This document shows positions 1 to 6,133 of a stretch of 45,413 bases of DNA, piece after piece. The number at the start of each line of letters is the position of its first letter. The first letter of the stretch is position 1. Source of the stretch: Sphingomonas sp. (GTDB lineage Bacteria; Pseudomonadota; Alphaproteobacteria; Sphingomonadales; Sphingomonadaceae); assembly GCF_025362505.1 (NCBI RefSeq), contig NZ_JANYGG010000080.1, positions 1 through 45,413 of the forward strand, read 5' to 3'. The notes beneath the pieces were generated by a model. The model searched no databases. It was not told the DNA's origin and saw only the letters and a list, made by a program, of their open reading frames with translations. A program made the translations under genes and the position numbers.

Positions 1-120
1 ATCGAGATCATGTTCGGCCGCCTCAAGGACTGGCGCCGCGTCGCCACTCGCTACGATCGATGCCCGACCGTCTTCCTCTCCGCCATCGCCCTCGCCGCCA
101 CCGTCATCTTCTGGCTCTGA
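1..120 (+). CDS. IS5-family transposase, C-terminal 39 residues (partial)
   Basis: The frame is open from base 1 and ends at TGA 118-120. The visible residues include MFGRLKDWRRVATRYDR followed by a hydrophobic tail ending in FWL. This is the usual C-terminus of IS427-group DDE transposases: the catalytic-Glu helix region, then a short hydrophobic end. The start lies outside the window. It does not match the IS5-type N-terminal fragment at 31.4-31.7 kb, which belongs to a different IS5 subgroup, so the two are not halves of one gene. Confidence 0.8.
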   Translation: MEIMFGRLKDWRRVATRYDRCPTVFLSAIALAATVIFWL

Positions 121-2335: not shown

Positions 2336-3376
2336 CTAGGCGCCCCGCTCCGCCACGTTGCGTCCCGCCATCCGCAGCACCAGCGGCATCATCATATGCG
2401 GCACCGTCAGCACCGACAGCACGACGAACGTCCCGCGCAGCACTCCCGCCGACAGCGCCGGCACCGACACCTCCGGCGCGCCGAGCCAGGCGATCACGAG
2501 GACCAGCAGCAGCGACGCGGCGCTCGCCGCTGTTACGGGAAACCGCCACGCCCGCCCGCCTGGGCCTGCTTTCCCGCCAAGCTCGGCCAGCCCGCGCGCG
2601 AACTGGCGCGGGGAATGGAACAAGCCGAAGCTCAGCGCGAACCCGACGAGCGGCGGGAGCAGCACCATCCCGGCCAGCGCCGCCGCGCTCGACGCCGCCA
2701 GCATCCGCCGCCCCGCGCTCCACAGCAGCGCGCAACCGGTCAGCCCCGCCGCGATCGCCACCGGCGCGACCAGCAGCAGTGAATTGGCCAGCGGCGGGAT
2801 CGCGCCCGGCCCGGCGATGATCGCGAACAGCGCGTCGATCTTGGCTCGGTGGAACAGCAGCGGCGCCGCGAGCAGCGCCAGCGCGCCGCCGTGCGCGATC
2901 AGCCCCGGGCCCGGCCAATCCTCGCCGAAATGCCCGATCGCGACCGCGAAAAACAGCAGCAGCGCGGCGCCGGGCATGACCCACCACAAGGCCGCCATCG
3001 CCCCGGCCAGCGCAAGGTACGAAGCGATCGCGCGCGTCCTCGATCGCGCCCCTAGCAGCCCGACCATGTCAAGCGCGCCATGCGGCAGCCCCAGCAGCAG
3101 GATCGCCGTGCACGACAGCATCGTCGCCGCGCCGCTGTCGAAGTCCGTTCCCAAAGCGGCGGCGACCAATGCCACTGCCGTCGCGCCGATGTGCAGCGCC
3201 CCGATCCGCACCTCGCCCCCAATCACGGCCTCATTCACGGCCTCATTCACGGCCTCATTCACGGCCTCATTCACGGCCCCATTCACGGCAACGCCGGCCG
3301 AAGGGGTTTTCCCTCCGACCGGCGCAGCGTGTTCAGAACCCCGGATCGCGGGATCACGATCCGGGATGGCAATCAT
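2336..3376 (-). CDS. blh: Brp/Blh-like beta-carotene 15,15'-dioxygenase
   Basis: This is a membrane dioxygenase expected to split beta-carotene into two retinals, supplying the chromophore of the rhodopsin encoded just upstream. Family signatures are visible: GLPHGALD (His99), IGHFGEDW (His149), GLFHSPRQ (His254) and TVPHMMM (His327), within a multi-helix hydrophobic protein. The usual HxxxH pair of the family is H254-S-P-R-Q258 here, so one expected His is Gln. The start ATG 3376 overlaps the rhodopsin stop (ATGA), giving an N-terminal extension of ~50 residues that contains a five-unit NEAV repeat. A later start is possible, and the body of the protein has normal length. The family call is firm; activity is uncertain because of the Gln. 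Confidence 0.85.
   Translation of the reverse strand: MIAIPDRDPAIRGSEHAAPVGGKTPSAGVAVNGAVNEAVNEAVNEAVNEAVIGGEVRIGALHIGATAVALVAAALGTDFDSGAATMLSCTAILLLGLPHGALDMVGLLGARSRTRAIASYLALAGAMAALWWVMPGAALLLFFAVAIGHFGEDWPGPGLIAHGGALALLAAPLLFHRAKIDALFAIIAGPGAIPPLANSLLLVAPVAIAAGLTGCALLWSAGRRMLAASSAAALAGMVLLPPLVGFALSFGLFHSPRQFARGLAELGGKAGPGGRAWRFPVTAASAASLLLVLVIAWLGAPEVSVPALSAGVLRGTFVVLSVLTVPHMMMPLVLRMAGRNVAERGA
3221..3290 (-). repeat. 12-bp tandem repeat near the 5' end of blh
   Basis: Four perfect units of GGCCTCATTCAC (3227-3274) are followed by one variant unit (3275-3286), with partial units at both sides. On the minus strand it encodes Asn-Glu-Ala-Val repeats at residues ~32-51 of the predicted product. 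In-frame copy-number change is possible. Confidence 0.9.
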
Positions 3377-4146
3377 GCCGCGTAGGGTGTCGAAACCCCG
3401 TCGGCCTCAGCCGCGGACTTGCGGACCGCGATGTTGTAGATGAGGATTCCGACGCCCGCCTTGGCGATAATGTCGGCCAGCGTGTAGCCGAGCTGCACCG
3501 CAACCTCGGTCGTCGCGCCCGACAGCGAAGTGTAGGGGATCATGTAGACGATCGGGTAGAAGCCCCACGAAGCGAACGTCAGCAACCGCGCCTGCTTGAC
3601 GAGGTTGCGGACGTTATCGGGCTGGCTCTCGATCGACTTGCTCAGGCCGGCGAACAACGACCACATGATGTAGGTGAACGGGATAGCCGACAGCGTGCCC
3701 CACAGCGCGCGTGTCGCGTTGTTGGTGGCGATCTCACCCGGATAGCCGAGCACGATCATCAGCGCGGCGGCAGAGCCGAGCTTCAACGAGCGCGACATCG
3801 TCTCTTCCTTGGTCAGGCGCATCACCAGCACGAGCTCGATCAGCAGCAGCGGAACGGTCAGCAGCCAGTCAACATAGCGATAGGCATCGACGAAGCCGAC
3901 CCCGGTGACCGTGACGACCCCGGCATTCACCGTGTAAGCGGCGTTCCAGCTCTCGAAAATGCGGAAATAGTGATAGGCGGCGATCGCGGTGACGAGCCCC
4001 GAGATGGTGATCGCTGTCTTGTAGGCGCTGCTGACCTGCGACCGGCTGATCCACAGGAACAGCGTCGTCGCGGCCATCGCCGCCAGGGTGAACGAAAAAG
4101 CGTTATATACCAGAGAGAACTGGTCGGCGGTAAGTTCCTGCATCAT
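3373..4146 (-). CDS. Xanthorhodopsin-type light-driven proton pump
   Basis: A seven-helix microbial rhodopsin in the inner membrane that pumps protons outward on light absorption. Key residues are present: Asp93, Thr97 and Glu104 in RYVDWLLTVPLLLIE (the DTE pump motif), His59 in AYHYFRI (partner of the counterion), Lys229 in ADIIAKAG (retinal Schiff base), and Leu101 at the spectral tuning position, typical of green-absorbing forms. Gly150 in LWGTLS aligns with the Gly that opens a carotenoid-antenna fenestration in xanthorhodopsin and Gloeobacter rhodopsin, where bacteriorhodopsin has Trp. Length (257 aa) is normal. Two adjacent ATGs (4146, 4143) follow AAGGA; the second has better spacing. 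It overlaps blh by 4 bp. Confidence 0.96.
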   Translation of the reverse strand: MMQELTADQFSLVYNAFSFTLAAMAATTLFLWISRSQVSSAYKTAITISGLVTAIAAYHYFRIFESWNAAYTVNAGVVTVTGVGFVDAYRYVDWLLTVPLLLIELVLVMRLTKEETMSRSLKLGSAAALMIVLGYPGEIATNNATRALWGTLSAIPFTYIMWSLFAGLSKSIESQPDNVRNLVKQARLLTFASWGFYPIVYMIPYTSLSGATTEVAVQLGYTLADIIAKAGVGILIYNIAVRKSAAEADGVSTPYAA

Positions 4147-4336
4147 GACTTCCTTGCTGGCGAACGCTGGGGCGCCGCACGATCAACGCCGGTTCGGCTG
4201 CAATCGGCCGGAACGGAGCGGCGTCAAGGCAACAGGATCGGCTCGGTTGCCGCACGATGGCGTTGGCGAGAACAGGTTATCGAGCCCCCACCCCCGTGCG
4301 ACCCGCCTCTCATGAACCGATGGCCGGGGCTCACCC

Positions 4337-4356
4337 ATACGGCATTTAGGCCGTAT
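4337..4356. promoter_or_regulatory. Perfect 7-6-7 dyad upstream of the rhodopsin gene (candidate operator)
   Basis: ATACGGC (4337-4343) and GCCGTAT (4350-4356) form an exact inverted repeat around ATTTAG. It lies between the LOV-HTH stop codon and the rhodopsin start, about 190 bp upstream of the latter. No T-run follows on the minus strand, so it is not a good intrinsic terminator. The minus-strand reading GGCCTAAATGCC resembles the GGCC...-type two-half sites described for the LOV-HTH protein EL222. An operator role is an inference. Confidence 0.5.
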
Positions 4357-4370
4357 CGCCAGGCCTCGAC

Positions 4371-4988
4371 CTATAGCCGCGCTTCGACCGCAATTCGGAT
4401 GGCGTCGGCGATGTTCGACGTGTGCATCTTCCCGAGCAGCAGCGCTCGGTGCATCTTGACCGTCTTCTCGCTCAGCGACAGCCGGTACGCGATCTGCTTG
4501 CTGCGAAAGCCGTTGGCGATCTCGCGCAGCACCTGCTCCTGGCGCGGCGACAGGCTGCGTACCAATTCGACTGCGTCATGATGGCGATTGGACGACGGCC
4601 CGACCGCCTCGGGATCGAGCTCGACCTGCGAGCCCATGCAATATTCGAGCTCGCCCATCTCGTCGAACACCGGCGCGACCAGCACCGCGTTACGAAACGG
4701 TTCGCCATCGCGCTTGTAGTTGAGGATTTCGACCAGCACCGGTCGCTTGCGCCGGATCCCGTCGCTGATCCGCTCGGTCAGCCACGGCTCGGTGTCGGGC
4801 CCGGCGAGGAAGCGGCAATTGCGCCCGAGGATTTCATCCTGCGCGTAACCGGTCAGCGCGCAGAACGCGGCATTGGCAGCGATGATCGGGTTCTGCGGCA
4901 GGCGCGGATTGCTGATTACCGACGCGATCGGGCTGACCGCAATCGCCGCGATCAGCGCATGGCACGACTCCCCGCTCCCCTGTACCAT
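4371..4988 (-). CDS. LOV-HTH blue-light transcription regulator (EL222-like)
   Basis: A short one-component photoreceptor: blue light makes a flavin-cysteine adduct in the LOV domain, which releases a LuxR/GerE-type helix-turn-helix to bind DNA. The LOV core spans residues ~20-125, with the hallmark GRNCRFLAG (Cys58 the adduct residue), Asn90 and Asn100 in the flavin-contacting strands and Gln121 in GSQVEL. The HTH is at ~145-205 (SPRQEQVLREIANG, then SEKTVKMHR). Domain order and length (205 aa) match EL222 of Erythrobacter. The start ATG 4988 is preceded by GGAGG. It lies just upstream of, and on the same strand as, the rhodopsin-blh pair, suggesting local control. Confidence 0.92.
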   Translation of the reverse strand: MVQGSGESCHALIAAIAVSPIASVISNPRLPQNPIIAANAAFCALTGYAQDEILGRNCRFLAGPDTEPWLTERISDGIRRKRPVLVEILNYKRDGEPFRNAVLVAPVFDEMGELEYCMGSQVELDPEAVGPSSNRHHDAVELVRSLSPRQEQVLREIANGFRSKQIAYRLSLSEKTVKMHRALLLGKMHTSNIADAIRIAVEARL

Positions 4989-5224: not shown

Positions 5225-6133
5225 ATGACCAGCATAACCGACCCCATCTATCAGGACGCCAATAAGGCTCGTGAGCACCTTGAGGCGCTGCATTGGCCAG
5301 ATGGTCCCGTCTGCCCTCGCTGCCGCACTGGCGACCGCATCACGAAGCTCGCGGGCAAGTCCACGCGCCCCGGCGTCTACAAGTGCAACGAGTGCGCTAA
5401 ACCTTTCACGGTTACTGTCGGGACTATCTTCGAGGACAGCAAAATTCCACTGAACAAGTGGCTGATGGCGTTTCGGCTTCTGAGCGGCGGCAAGAAGGGT
5501 TTCAGCGCACACGAGCTGCACCGCGCTCTTGGCATCACCTACAAGTCGGCTTGGTTCATGGAGCATCGCATCCGTGAAGCCATGTCGAACAACTACGTTG
5601 GACCGATGGGCGGCGCTGGCGTGACCGTGGAAGCCGACGAGACATTTGTTGGCGGCAAGAAGCGCAACCGCGCATCTGGCAAGGTTGCTCCGAAGAAGAT
5701 CGTAATGACACTTATAGAGCGCGGCGGTGAGGCTCGCTCGTTCCATGTCGCCAATGTCCACGGCAATACGCTGCGCTCGGTTCTCGCAACCAATGTCGAT
5801 CGTTCGTCTCACCTGATGACCGATGCCGCTAACGCCTATCGTGAGGTCGGTCGGGAGTTCGTCTCACACGGCACGACTATACACGCCATCCGCCAGTATG
5901 TGGACGGCAACAAGCACTCGAACACCGCCGAGAACTTTTTCAGCATCTTCAAGCGCGGCGTGATCGGCACCTATCACCACATGAGCGCCGTTCACTTGCA
6001 CCGCTACACGGCGGAGTTTGATTTCCGTTACAACACCCGCAAAATATCCGATGCGGAGCGCACTGAAGAGGCACTGAAAGGCGCACGCGGGAAACGCCTC
6101 TTGTACCGGCAACCTCGTTCGGTCGCTGCCTGA
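5225..6133 (+). CDS. IS1595-family (ISXO2-like) transposase
   Basis: This catalyses transposition of the surrounding 1.9-kb element. The N-terminal zinc ribbon has CPRC (Cys30/33) and CNEC (Cys54/57). An HTH-like segment follows (ALGITYKSAW). The DDE-type domain contains VEADETFVGG (Asp138), LMTDAANAY (Asp200) and the HSNTAENFFS block (Glu236), then the characteristic GTYHHMSAVHLHRY motif. The length, 302 aa, is normal for the family. It starts at ATG 5225 behind AGGAA. The frame is intact and all catalytic residues are present, so it is probably active. Confidence 0.95.
   Translation: MTSITDPIYQDANKAREHLEALHWPDGPVCPRCRTGDRITKLAGKSTRPGVYKCNECAKPFTVTVGTIFEDSKIPLNKWLMAFRLLSGGKKGFSAHELHRALGITYKSAWFMEHRIREAMSNNYVGPMGGAGVTVEADETFVGGKKRNRASGKVAPKKIVMTLIERGGEARSFHVANVHGNTLRSVLATNVDRSSHLMTDAANAYREVGREFVSHGTTIHAIRQYVDGNKHSNTAENFFSIFKRGVIGTYHHMSAVHLHRYTAEFDFRYNTRKISDAERTEEALKGARGKRLLYRQPRSVAA

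Follow-up and report, generated by a model that had tools for sequence, protein, structure and literature searches.

Does a blue-light regulator control the proton-pumping rhodopsin encoded beside it? This question is raised by a stretch of DNA of 45,413 nucleotides (nt) from Sphingomonas sp. (assembly GCF_025362505.1, contig NZ_JANYGG010000080.1, positions 1 to 45,413), the whole of which is referred to as the window below. Three genes follow one another on its minus strand: a gene for an EL222-type regulator with LOV and helix-turn-helix (HTH) domains (4371-4988, 205 amino acids, Pfam PAS_9 and GerE), a gene for a xanthorhodopsin-type (XR) proton pump (3373-4146, 257 amino acids, Pfam Bac_rhodopsin) and blh, encoding a beta-carotene 15,15'-dioxygenase for retinal supply (2336-3376, 346 amino acids, Pfam BCD and NCBIfam Brp/Blh). 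All of them were intact open reading frames in the order given by an earlier interpretation of the same DNA, made from its letters alone (the sequence-only reading), and the start of blh overlapped the end of the XR gene by 4 nt.

On the basis of the comparisons described here, we consider it likely that LOV-HTH, XR and blh constitute a light-gated phototrophy unit, in which the LOV-HTH protein would respond to blue light by activating XR and blh from a palindromic operator (the LOV box). In the dark, the LOV-HTH protein would be inactive. Blue light would generate the flavin-cysteine adduct and lead to dimerisation, and the dimer would bind the predicted box that closely follows the LOV-HTH gene (4335-4358, minus strand). 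The centre of this box is approximately 44 bp before the predicted transcription start, where a class II LuxR-type activator would contact RNA polymerase, so that binding should switch on XR and, as the next gene of the unit, Blh, which makes the retinal. We infer the light dependence of binding from EL222.

The protein sequences fit these roles. When compared with PDB, the LOV protein had EL222 (8a5r) as its top match (query residues 14-204 of 205, E 4.2e-69), with 109 of 191 aligned residues identical. The adduct cysteine (in GRNCRF) and the glutamine of GSQ were both present, in agreement with the sequence-only reading, which had noted the adduct cysteine and flavin contacts of an EL222-type LOV-HTH protein, and the recognition helix (SEKTVKMHR) was identical to that of EL222. 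The adduct cysteine and G[ST]Q were found in all 53 XR-adjacent LOV rows (near-duplicates counted). Annotation of the LOV gene as a blue-light-activated histidine kinase was rejected: no HisKA/HWE or HATPase domain was found in the window protein by Pfam, and the NCBIfam kinase model covered only its LOV part (118 bits vs a cut-off of 450).

The XR protein shared 137 of 249 aligned residues with the xanthorhodopsin chain of 3ddl, and its best PDB matches were psXR, xanthorhodopsin and Gll0198. Residues D93, T97, E104 and K229 aligned with xanthorhodopsin D96, T100, E107 and K240, which bears out the DTE pump motif and Schiff-base lysine recognized before. In addition, H59 aligned with H62 and G150 with G156 (antenna pocket position), and a leucine occupied the green-tuning position. 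The Blh identification also held, with scores above the curated cut-offs of both NCBIfam TIGR03753 (122.0 vs 95.25 bits) and Pfam BCD (113 vs 28 bits). In a study of Sphingomonas sp. AAP5 (PMC7762795), the matching Asp, Glu and Gly of the AAP5 rhodopsin, as well as the tuning and pocket positions, were interpreted alike.

Linkage of LOV-HTH and XR genes

A scan of species genomes yielded 403 stretches encoding rhodopsin relatives, the best 80 loci of which were kept. The sequence-only reading had proposed a comparison of gene neighbourhoods and had made its idea depend on LOV-HTH standing beside rhodopsin in at least some relatives; an EL222-like LOV-HTH gene was found upstream of XR within 2 kb at 47 of the 80 loci (35 on the same strand and 12 divergent), 46 of them within 320 bp and one (L039) at 1.5 kb. 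At two more loci LOV-HTH was located downstream of blh, and at 31 loci none was present within 3.5 kb, in some cases because the contig ends. Partial LOV matches were observed close upstream of XR on the opposite strand at L006 and L008, which are perhaps decayed remnants.

So that the choice of genomes would not depend on rhodopsin similarity, we also examined an evenly spread set of 296 genomes of the order for LOV-HTH (E-value no higher than 1e-40) and XR (no higher than 1e-80). LOV-HTH was detected in 72 of them and XR in 15, of which 12 had both; the two genes were adjacent in 7 of the 15, including the genome of the window. The occurrence of LOV-HTH in XR genomes (12 of 15) differed from that in the others (60 of 281; Fisher 5e-6, kinship ignored), also when the genome of the window was left out (11 of 14; Fisher 2e-5, with the same neglect of kinship). 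Among the 33 genomes of the 80-locus set without a directly upstream LOV gene, 27 matched the LOV-HTH query at E 1e-30; one match (G324) covered nothing but the LOV portion of a long frame, which leaves 26 of the 33 with a LOV-HTH gene elsewhere and brings the XR genomes that have one anywhere to 73 of the 80. The LOV-XR neighbourhood is more than a chance association. XR was found in only 4 of 385 genomes class-wide, two of which were from the family of the window, and is thus too rare for a class-wide replication of the linkage. Two Polymorphobacter plasmids carry XR of this kind; on one of them (L207; NZ_CP080242.1, 842 kb) XR and blh have a fasciclin gene after them and, before them on the opposite strand, two response regulator genes, and no LOV-HTH is annotated in the stretch around XR-blh.

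In a tree of 115 LOV-HTH rows, the XR-adjacent proteins fell in at least four places. Clade A comprised Brevundimonas, Blastomonas, some Erythrobacter and Novosphingobium, and the window protein; clade B, with support of 100/99, comprised Sphingorhabdus and its kin, all with the divergent arrangement; clade C comprised Sphingomonas, including S. glacialis; and two XR-adjacent rows (L061 and L149) were inside the EL222 clade. XR-adjacency labels required 9 changes on this tree, compared with a mean of 43 for shuffled labels. We rejected one origin of the whole LOV-XR pattern as an explanation: because the XR-linked LOV proteins span at least four clades, a single origin is unlikely, with gains and losses indistinguishable. 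The genome of the window contains a second LOV-HTH gene (G000:C81:17364-17936, L087), 63% identical to the window protein and located on another contig than the only XR match of this genome. It belongs to the XR-linked Sphingomonas clade, and its downstream box is decayed (9.4 bits with the matrix described below).

Several features of the flanks and of blh were also observed. An IS1595 transposase gene (5225-6133) is present just upstream of the LOV gene, and the left edge of the window (1-120) contains, by eye, the end of an apparent second transposase; the LOV-XR-blh unit may have arrived by transposition or transfer. A shared position of this unit and of L004, the locus with the closest XR relative, was rejected, since the DNA matched only in parts of LOV, in XR with its leader and in blh, and the flanks differed; the L004 LOV protein matched that of C81 better than that of the window. 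Near the blh start (3231-3290), a 12-bp repeat (TCATTCACGGCC, plus strand) occurs in four exact copies and one variant and encodes a VNEAVNEAVNEA stretch in the N-terminus of Blh.

Predicted operator and promoter of the XR gene

When LOV-XR intervals were read side by side, a palindrome appeared, for example ATACGGCCTAAAGGCCGTATGG in several Brevundimonas and TACGGCACAAAGCCCGTATCG in S. glacialis. The corresponding sequence in the window is CGATACGGCCTAAATGCCGTATGG (4335-4358, minus strand), 12 nt after the LOV stop codon, which we predict to be the LOV operator. It fits 11 of 12 core positions of the EL222 operator consensus RGNCYWWRGNCY (PMC10521638), and the natural EL222 'peak B' sequence in the same paper has GACCAAAGC in common with the box of L061. 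An exact 12/12 fit to the consensus was found in 18 of 51 XR upstream regions (clade A with the window, 11/19; B, 0/12; C, 6/18; D, 1/2), and each of these 18 regions attained such a fit in 1.5-4.5% of 200 local shuffles.

Because the 12-mer consensus alone was not significant for the window, a hold-out matrix was used instead, with 120 segments of 2.5 kb as background. A matrix built from clade C alone gave 24.4 bits to the window box, compared with 13.4 bits for the best of the 120 segments, and 12 of 18 other clade A loci exceeded all segments as well; L071, L051, L065, L030, L048 and L039 failed to do so. With a matrix from both clades, the window box (32.8 bits) was the best site in 45 kb, the next separate site having 15.3 bits. 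Two strict box patterns had their only exact match in the whole genome at the window box, and one of them, applied to 25 genomes, matched in 14 (15 sites), whereas its reversed control matched in none. A larger regulon in this genome was considered and rejected: a search allowing 3 mismatches gave 3 matches (two of them the window site), compared with 4 for the reversed control.

An independent set was provided by 60 of the 75 LOV-HTH matches without a neighbouring XR gene. In 16 of these 60, the 80 nt after the LOV match contained a box scoring 9 bits or more, whereas only 2 of 438,224 positions did so at distances above 300 nt on that strand. Thus, the box accompanies the LOV gene itself rather than rhodopsin alone. 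All 16 were among the 48 genes with a canonical recognition helix, compared with 0 of 12 with another or no helix found. Two further sites were observed: at position 1501 of L199 (S. glacialis E6.1), a second box stands between a 79-amino-acid frame resembling a LOV-HTH end and a downstream XR-like leader, an arrangement that may be a decayed copy of the LOV-box module; at L101 (G242), LOV-HTH, box and leader are kept and the downstream sequence seems, by eye, to run from the first XR codons into the blh end, apparently a deletion scar of XR-blh.

A set of 49 LOV-XR pairs, near-duplicates counted, was then used to compare recognition helix with box; it consisted of the window, L147, L149 and 46 of the 80 loci. 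Where the helix was canonical ([SA]E[KR]T[VI]KMHR), 33 of 34 pairs had a box of at least 10 bits, L149 being the exception; where it was changed, none of 15 did (Fisher 1e-11 between the two groups, the rows of which are not independent). The changed boxes, read by eye, had their own forms. Clade B (n=12) had the helix [SC]EQTVKMHR (SEQ in 11, CEQ in L031), and 10 of its 12 boxes were ACATGGTATAAAGGNTAGGTTG or close variants, L031 and L035 having another form. L030 and L048 combined the helix SEKTIEMHR with TACAGGGTAAMCCCCTA, and L051 combined SEKTVDMHR with CTACCGAGAGAAACCCGTAG. L065, where LOV is downstream of blh, had SEETVKMHR and, upstream of XR, TACCCCCAAAAGGGGGTA. At least three separate helix changes were found among XR-linked LOV proteins. 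Regulator and box co-vary, with changed recognition helices accompanying changed boxes.

The distance between box and promoter was also constrained. Clades A, C and D contributed 34 XR sites; in 26 of them (6/13, 17/18 and 3/3, respectively), the dinucleotide TA followed the 24-bp box at exactly 20 nt, compared with a mean of 0.43 and a maximum of 2 at other offsets. The same spacing was observed in 11 of 14 non-XR sites, which were picked by eye, two further sites at 9-11 bits being excluded. From this spacing, we predict the -10 hexamer of the window to be CATGAG (4309-4314, minus strand), at the same 20-nt distance from the box; a -35-like element was not apparent by eye. Assuming 6 nt between the -10 hexamer and the start, the box centre is at about -44. 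Class II activators of the LuxR type bind around -42, and a box centre near -44 thus argues for activation as the sign of regulation. The slightly deviant promoter of the window itself presumably still works.

The XR mRNA is predicted to begin with a hairpin, its first 54 nt corresponding to 4249-4302 (minus strand) if the start is placed as above; the 57 nt folded had a free energy of -30.7 kcal/mol (z -4.31). Predicted XR mRNAs of clade C (for example, L052, L059 and L042) also open with a long 5' hairpin. When 15 of 18 leaders of the Sphingomonas clade were aligned (without L075, L077 and L079, the last two lacking such a fold), 12 of 26 pairs were changed on both sides, mostly in inner helices. 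The clade C hairpin could act on stability or on the temperature response. An Rfam scan of 12 loci had a cobalamin riboswitch as its sole match.

Weighing of the alternatives

Blue-light control, which the sequence-only reading had proposed from gene position, thus gains support from the linkage, from a predicted operator within the intergenic interval (4147-4370), from the -10 spacing in relatives and from the helix-box co-variation. Judged from sequence comparisons, this interpretation appears well supported for the linked arrangement as in the window. A number of observations weigh against it. First, 33 of the 80 XR loci have no LOV gene directly upstream, and in L004, the closest XR relative (90% identity), LOV-HTH is 9.3 kb away. 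Of the 31 XR loci without a nearby LOV gene, 29 were scanned, and boxes of at least 10 bits were present at 8 of these (L066, 30.3; L029, 27.0; L033, 19.5; L040, 19.1; L041, 17.8; L004, 16.4; L024, 13.6; and L009, 10.2 bits), namely in 5 of 23 genomes with LOV-HTH and in 3 of 6 without (L009, L040 and L041; these genomes may be incomplete). Such boxes would be expected to track LOV-HTH if a copy elsewhere in the genome were all that maintained them, and they did not, so that unlinked XR genes are not well explained by the model. XR loci without an adjacent LOV gene have also mostly lost the 20-nt TA spacing (retained in 2 of 13), and a 9-bit box is missing behind 32 of the 48 LOV genes that have a canonical helix but no XR beside them. 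Second, the window site is not perfect: its -10 starts with C where most relatives have TA, and its box has T for G at one core position (as do L064 and L083), which possibly makes for a weaker promoter. Its 11/12 fit to the 12-mer was attained by 40% of shuffles. Third, the reverse hold-out was weaker, in that the clade A matrix placed 10 of 18 clade C loci above all background (highest 15.0) and the other 8 were exceeded or equalled by 1 to 8 of the 120 segments. The box matrix was built from XR-linked sites only, which introduces some circularity into the scores at those loci, and the limits of 9 and 10 bits were chosen with the data already in view. Finally, the XR of AAP5 was almost silent under the conditions of 2020 (PMC7762795).

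Some of these points would also be expected if another regulator (general stress, cold or redox) controlled XR and LOV-HTH were a passenger, the local switch being disabled here by the second LOV-HTH protein or by a degraded promoter. The deviating -10 and core base of the window, the C81 gene from the XR-linked Sphingomonas clade with its own box decayed, and the boxes in genomes where no LOV-HTH was found are compatible with such a situation. However, the LOV gene of the window, its reading frame, its recognition helix and both box arms are intact, and the window box is the one exact match of the strict box patterns in this genome. We regard a passenger role as unlikely.

A reversed sign of regulation, in which the box-bound LOV-HTH protein would act as a repressor of XR-blh in blue light, so that the pump is made in dim or long-wavelength light, is less probable still. 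EL222 does repress when its operator is placed inside the promoter core (PMC9614035, PMC10521638), but the window box ends 20 nt before the -10 and hence lies at and upstream of the -35 region rather than between -35 and -10, an arrangement for which activation was reported (PMC9614035; operator upstream of -35).

Very little credit can be given to the view that the palindrome serves the LOV gene solely as terminator or RNA hairpin, with LOV-HTH regulating something else and the neighbours travelling together because both are light-related: many loci, whether XR is present or not, do have the box at 0-30 nt behind the LOV stop, but its centre (YAARG), which would be the unpaired loop, is conserved, no T-run follows it by eye, it occurs upstream of XR genes without an adjoining LOV gene (L066, L029 and L033 above), and it differs where the recognition helix differs and holds a fixed distance to the TA.

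Possible LOV-box modules and known systems

Outside the XR loci, LOV boxes were found before other transcription units. In three loci (L086, L118 and L120, the last from the genus of the window), the box stands directly before a gene for a fasciclin-like protein, with TA at +20 in each, and at L119 it stands before a gene for a small membrane protein, without TA at +20 (cargo identities were read by eye from translations). Such proteins seem to be a second kind of LOV-box cargo. At L123, L110 and L105, which have LOV-HTH without XR, the next gene behind the LOV box is convergent and the interval contains strong hairpins with CCUCC-type stretches or a terminator-like stem: a hairpin of 113 nt at L105 (z -6.66), 81 nt at L123 (z -3.60) together with a terminator-like stem (z -6.31), and a stem at L110 (z -5.50). 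A similar stem was observed at L085 (z -4.01), which has no good box, and a similar interval, by eye, at L093. Rfam had no match in L123, L110 or L105. The hairpins behind the LOV box look like a LOV-controlled small RNA, and L123, the nearest relative of EL222 in the tree, is one of these loci.

Taken together, the evidence tips slightly towards a broader picture, in which EL222-type regulators carry a portable light-switch module (LOV-HTH, box, class II promoter and the next unit), XR-blh having been captured several times with regulator and box co-evolving, and in which its cargo elsewhere seems to be a fasciclin-like protein or a small RNA with CUCC loops. In that case, many EL222 relatives would have the adjoining transcript as their native target, and control of transcription by blue light would be widespread in the rhodopsin phototrophy of alphaproteobacteria. 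EL222 is a common tool of optogenetics, and our analysis offers its relatives a native target and a promoter layout that can be tested, as well as natural regulator-operator pairs with apparently altered specificity that would be useful for orthogonal switches. LOV control might also explain why a rhodopsin pump stays silent under certain conditions. A PNAS study of 2022 reportedly found that the XR of AAP5 was made only in light and in cold.

Both regulator and pump are of known kinds; their pairing as a recurrent, co-varying regulator-operator-pump unit seems to be new. A search of titles and abstract openings found no paper on LOV-HTH control of rhodopsin and no earlier account of a LOV-XR operator, promoter layout or helix-box co-variation, in line with the earlier statement that no rhodopsin operon had been established as a target of an EL222-type regulator. 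EL222 itself (Erythrobacter litoralis HTCC2594; PDB 3p7n, 8a5r) resembles the window protein in the full-length domain match, the adduct cysteine and the recognition helix, and its operator consensus is close to the core of the window operator, whereas the window protein belongs to another clade of the family and is encoded beside a xanthorhodopsin. The EL222 literature consulted describes operators and engineering uses and names no rhodopsin or other physiological target.

The cluster of Sphingomonas sp. AAP5 (XR, E2E30_05030; blh, _05025; 'blue-light-activated histidine kinase', _05035), which is syntenic in some Sphingomonas (PMC7762795), has locus tags that fit the gene order of the window. 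That study named the regulator a histidine kinase and proposed XR as a light sensor, whereas the regulator of the window is a LOV-HTH protein. In S. glacialis (L052 and L059), the gene at the place of the AAP5 'kinase' has PAS and GerE but no kinase domain (Pfam), and none of the five neighbouring proteins tested was a kinase. PDB 3p7n gives EL222 itself the label 'Sensor histidine kinase', which makes the same mistake likely at AAP5, where the protein is most likely a LOV-HTH transcription factor; we suggest that the published annotation be corrected.

The nearest functional analogue is Bat, the bop regulator, in which a PAS/HTH regulator and a proton-pump opsin are combined as in the window; Brp, a relative of Blh, belongs to the same gene set. 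Bat of Halobacterium salinarum mediates proton-pump opsin production and differs from the window protein in being archaeal and in lacking the reactive LOV cysteine, and is described as redox- and putatively light-sensing (PMC4844311). The LdaP/PpsR system of Dinoroseobacter shibae resembles the window in that a LOV photoreceptor controls a light-energy apparatus, whereas LdaP is an antirepressor of PpsR on bacteriochlorophyll genes (PMC12654162) and not, as we propose for the LOV-HTH protein of the window, a DNA-binding activator of rhodopsin.

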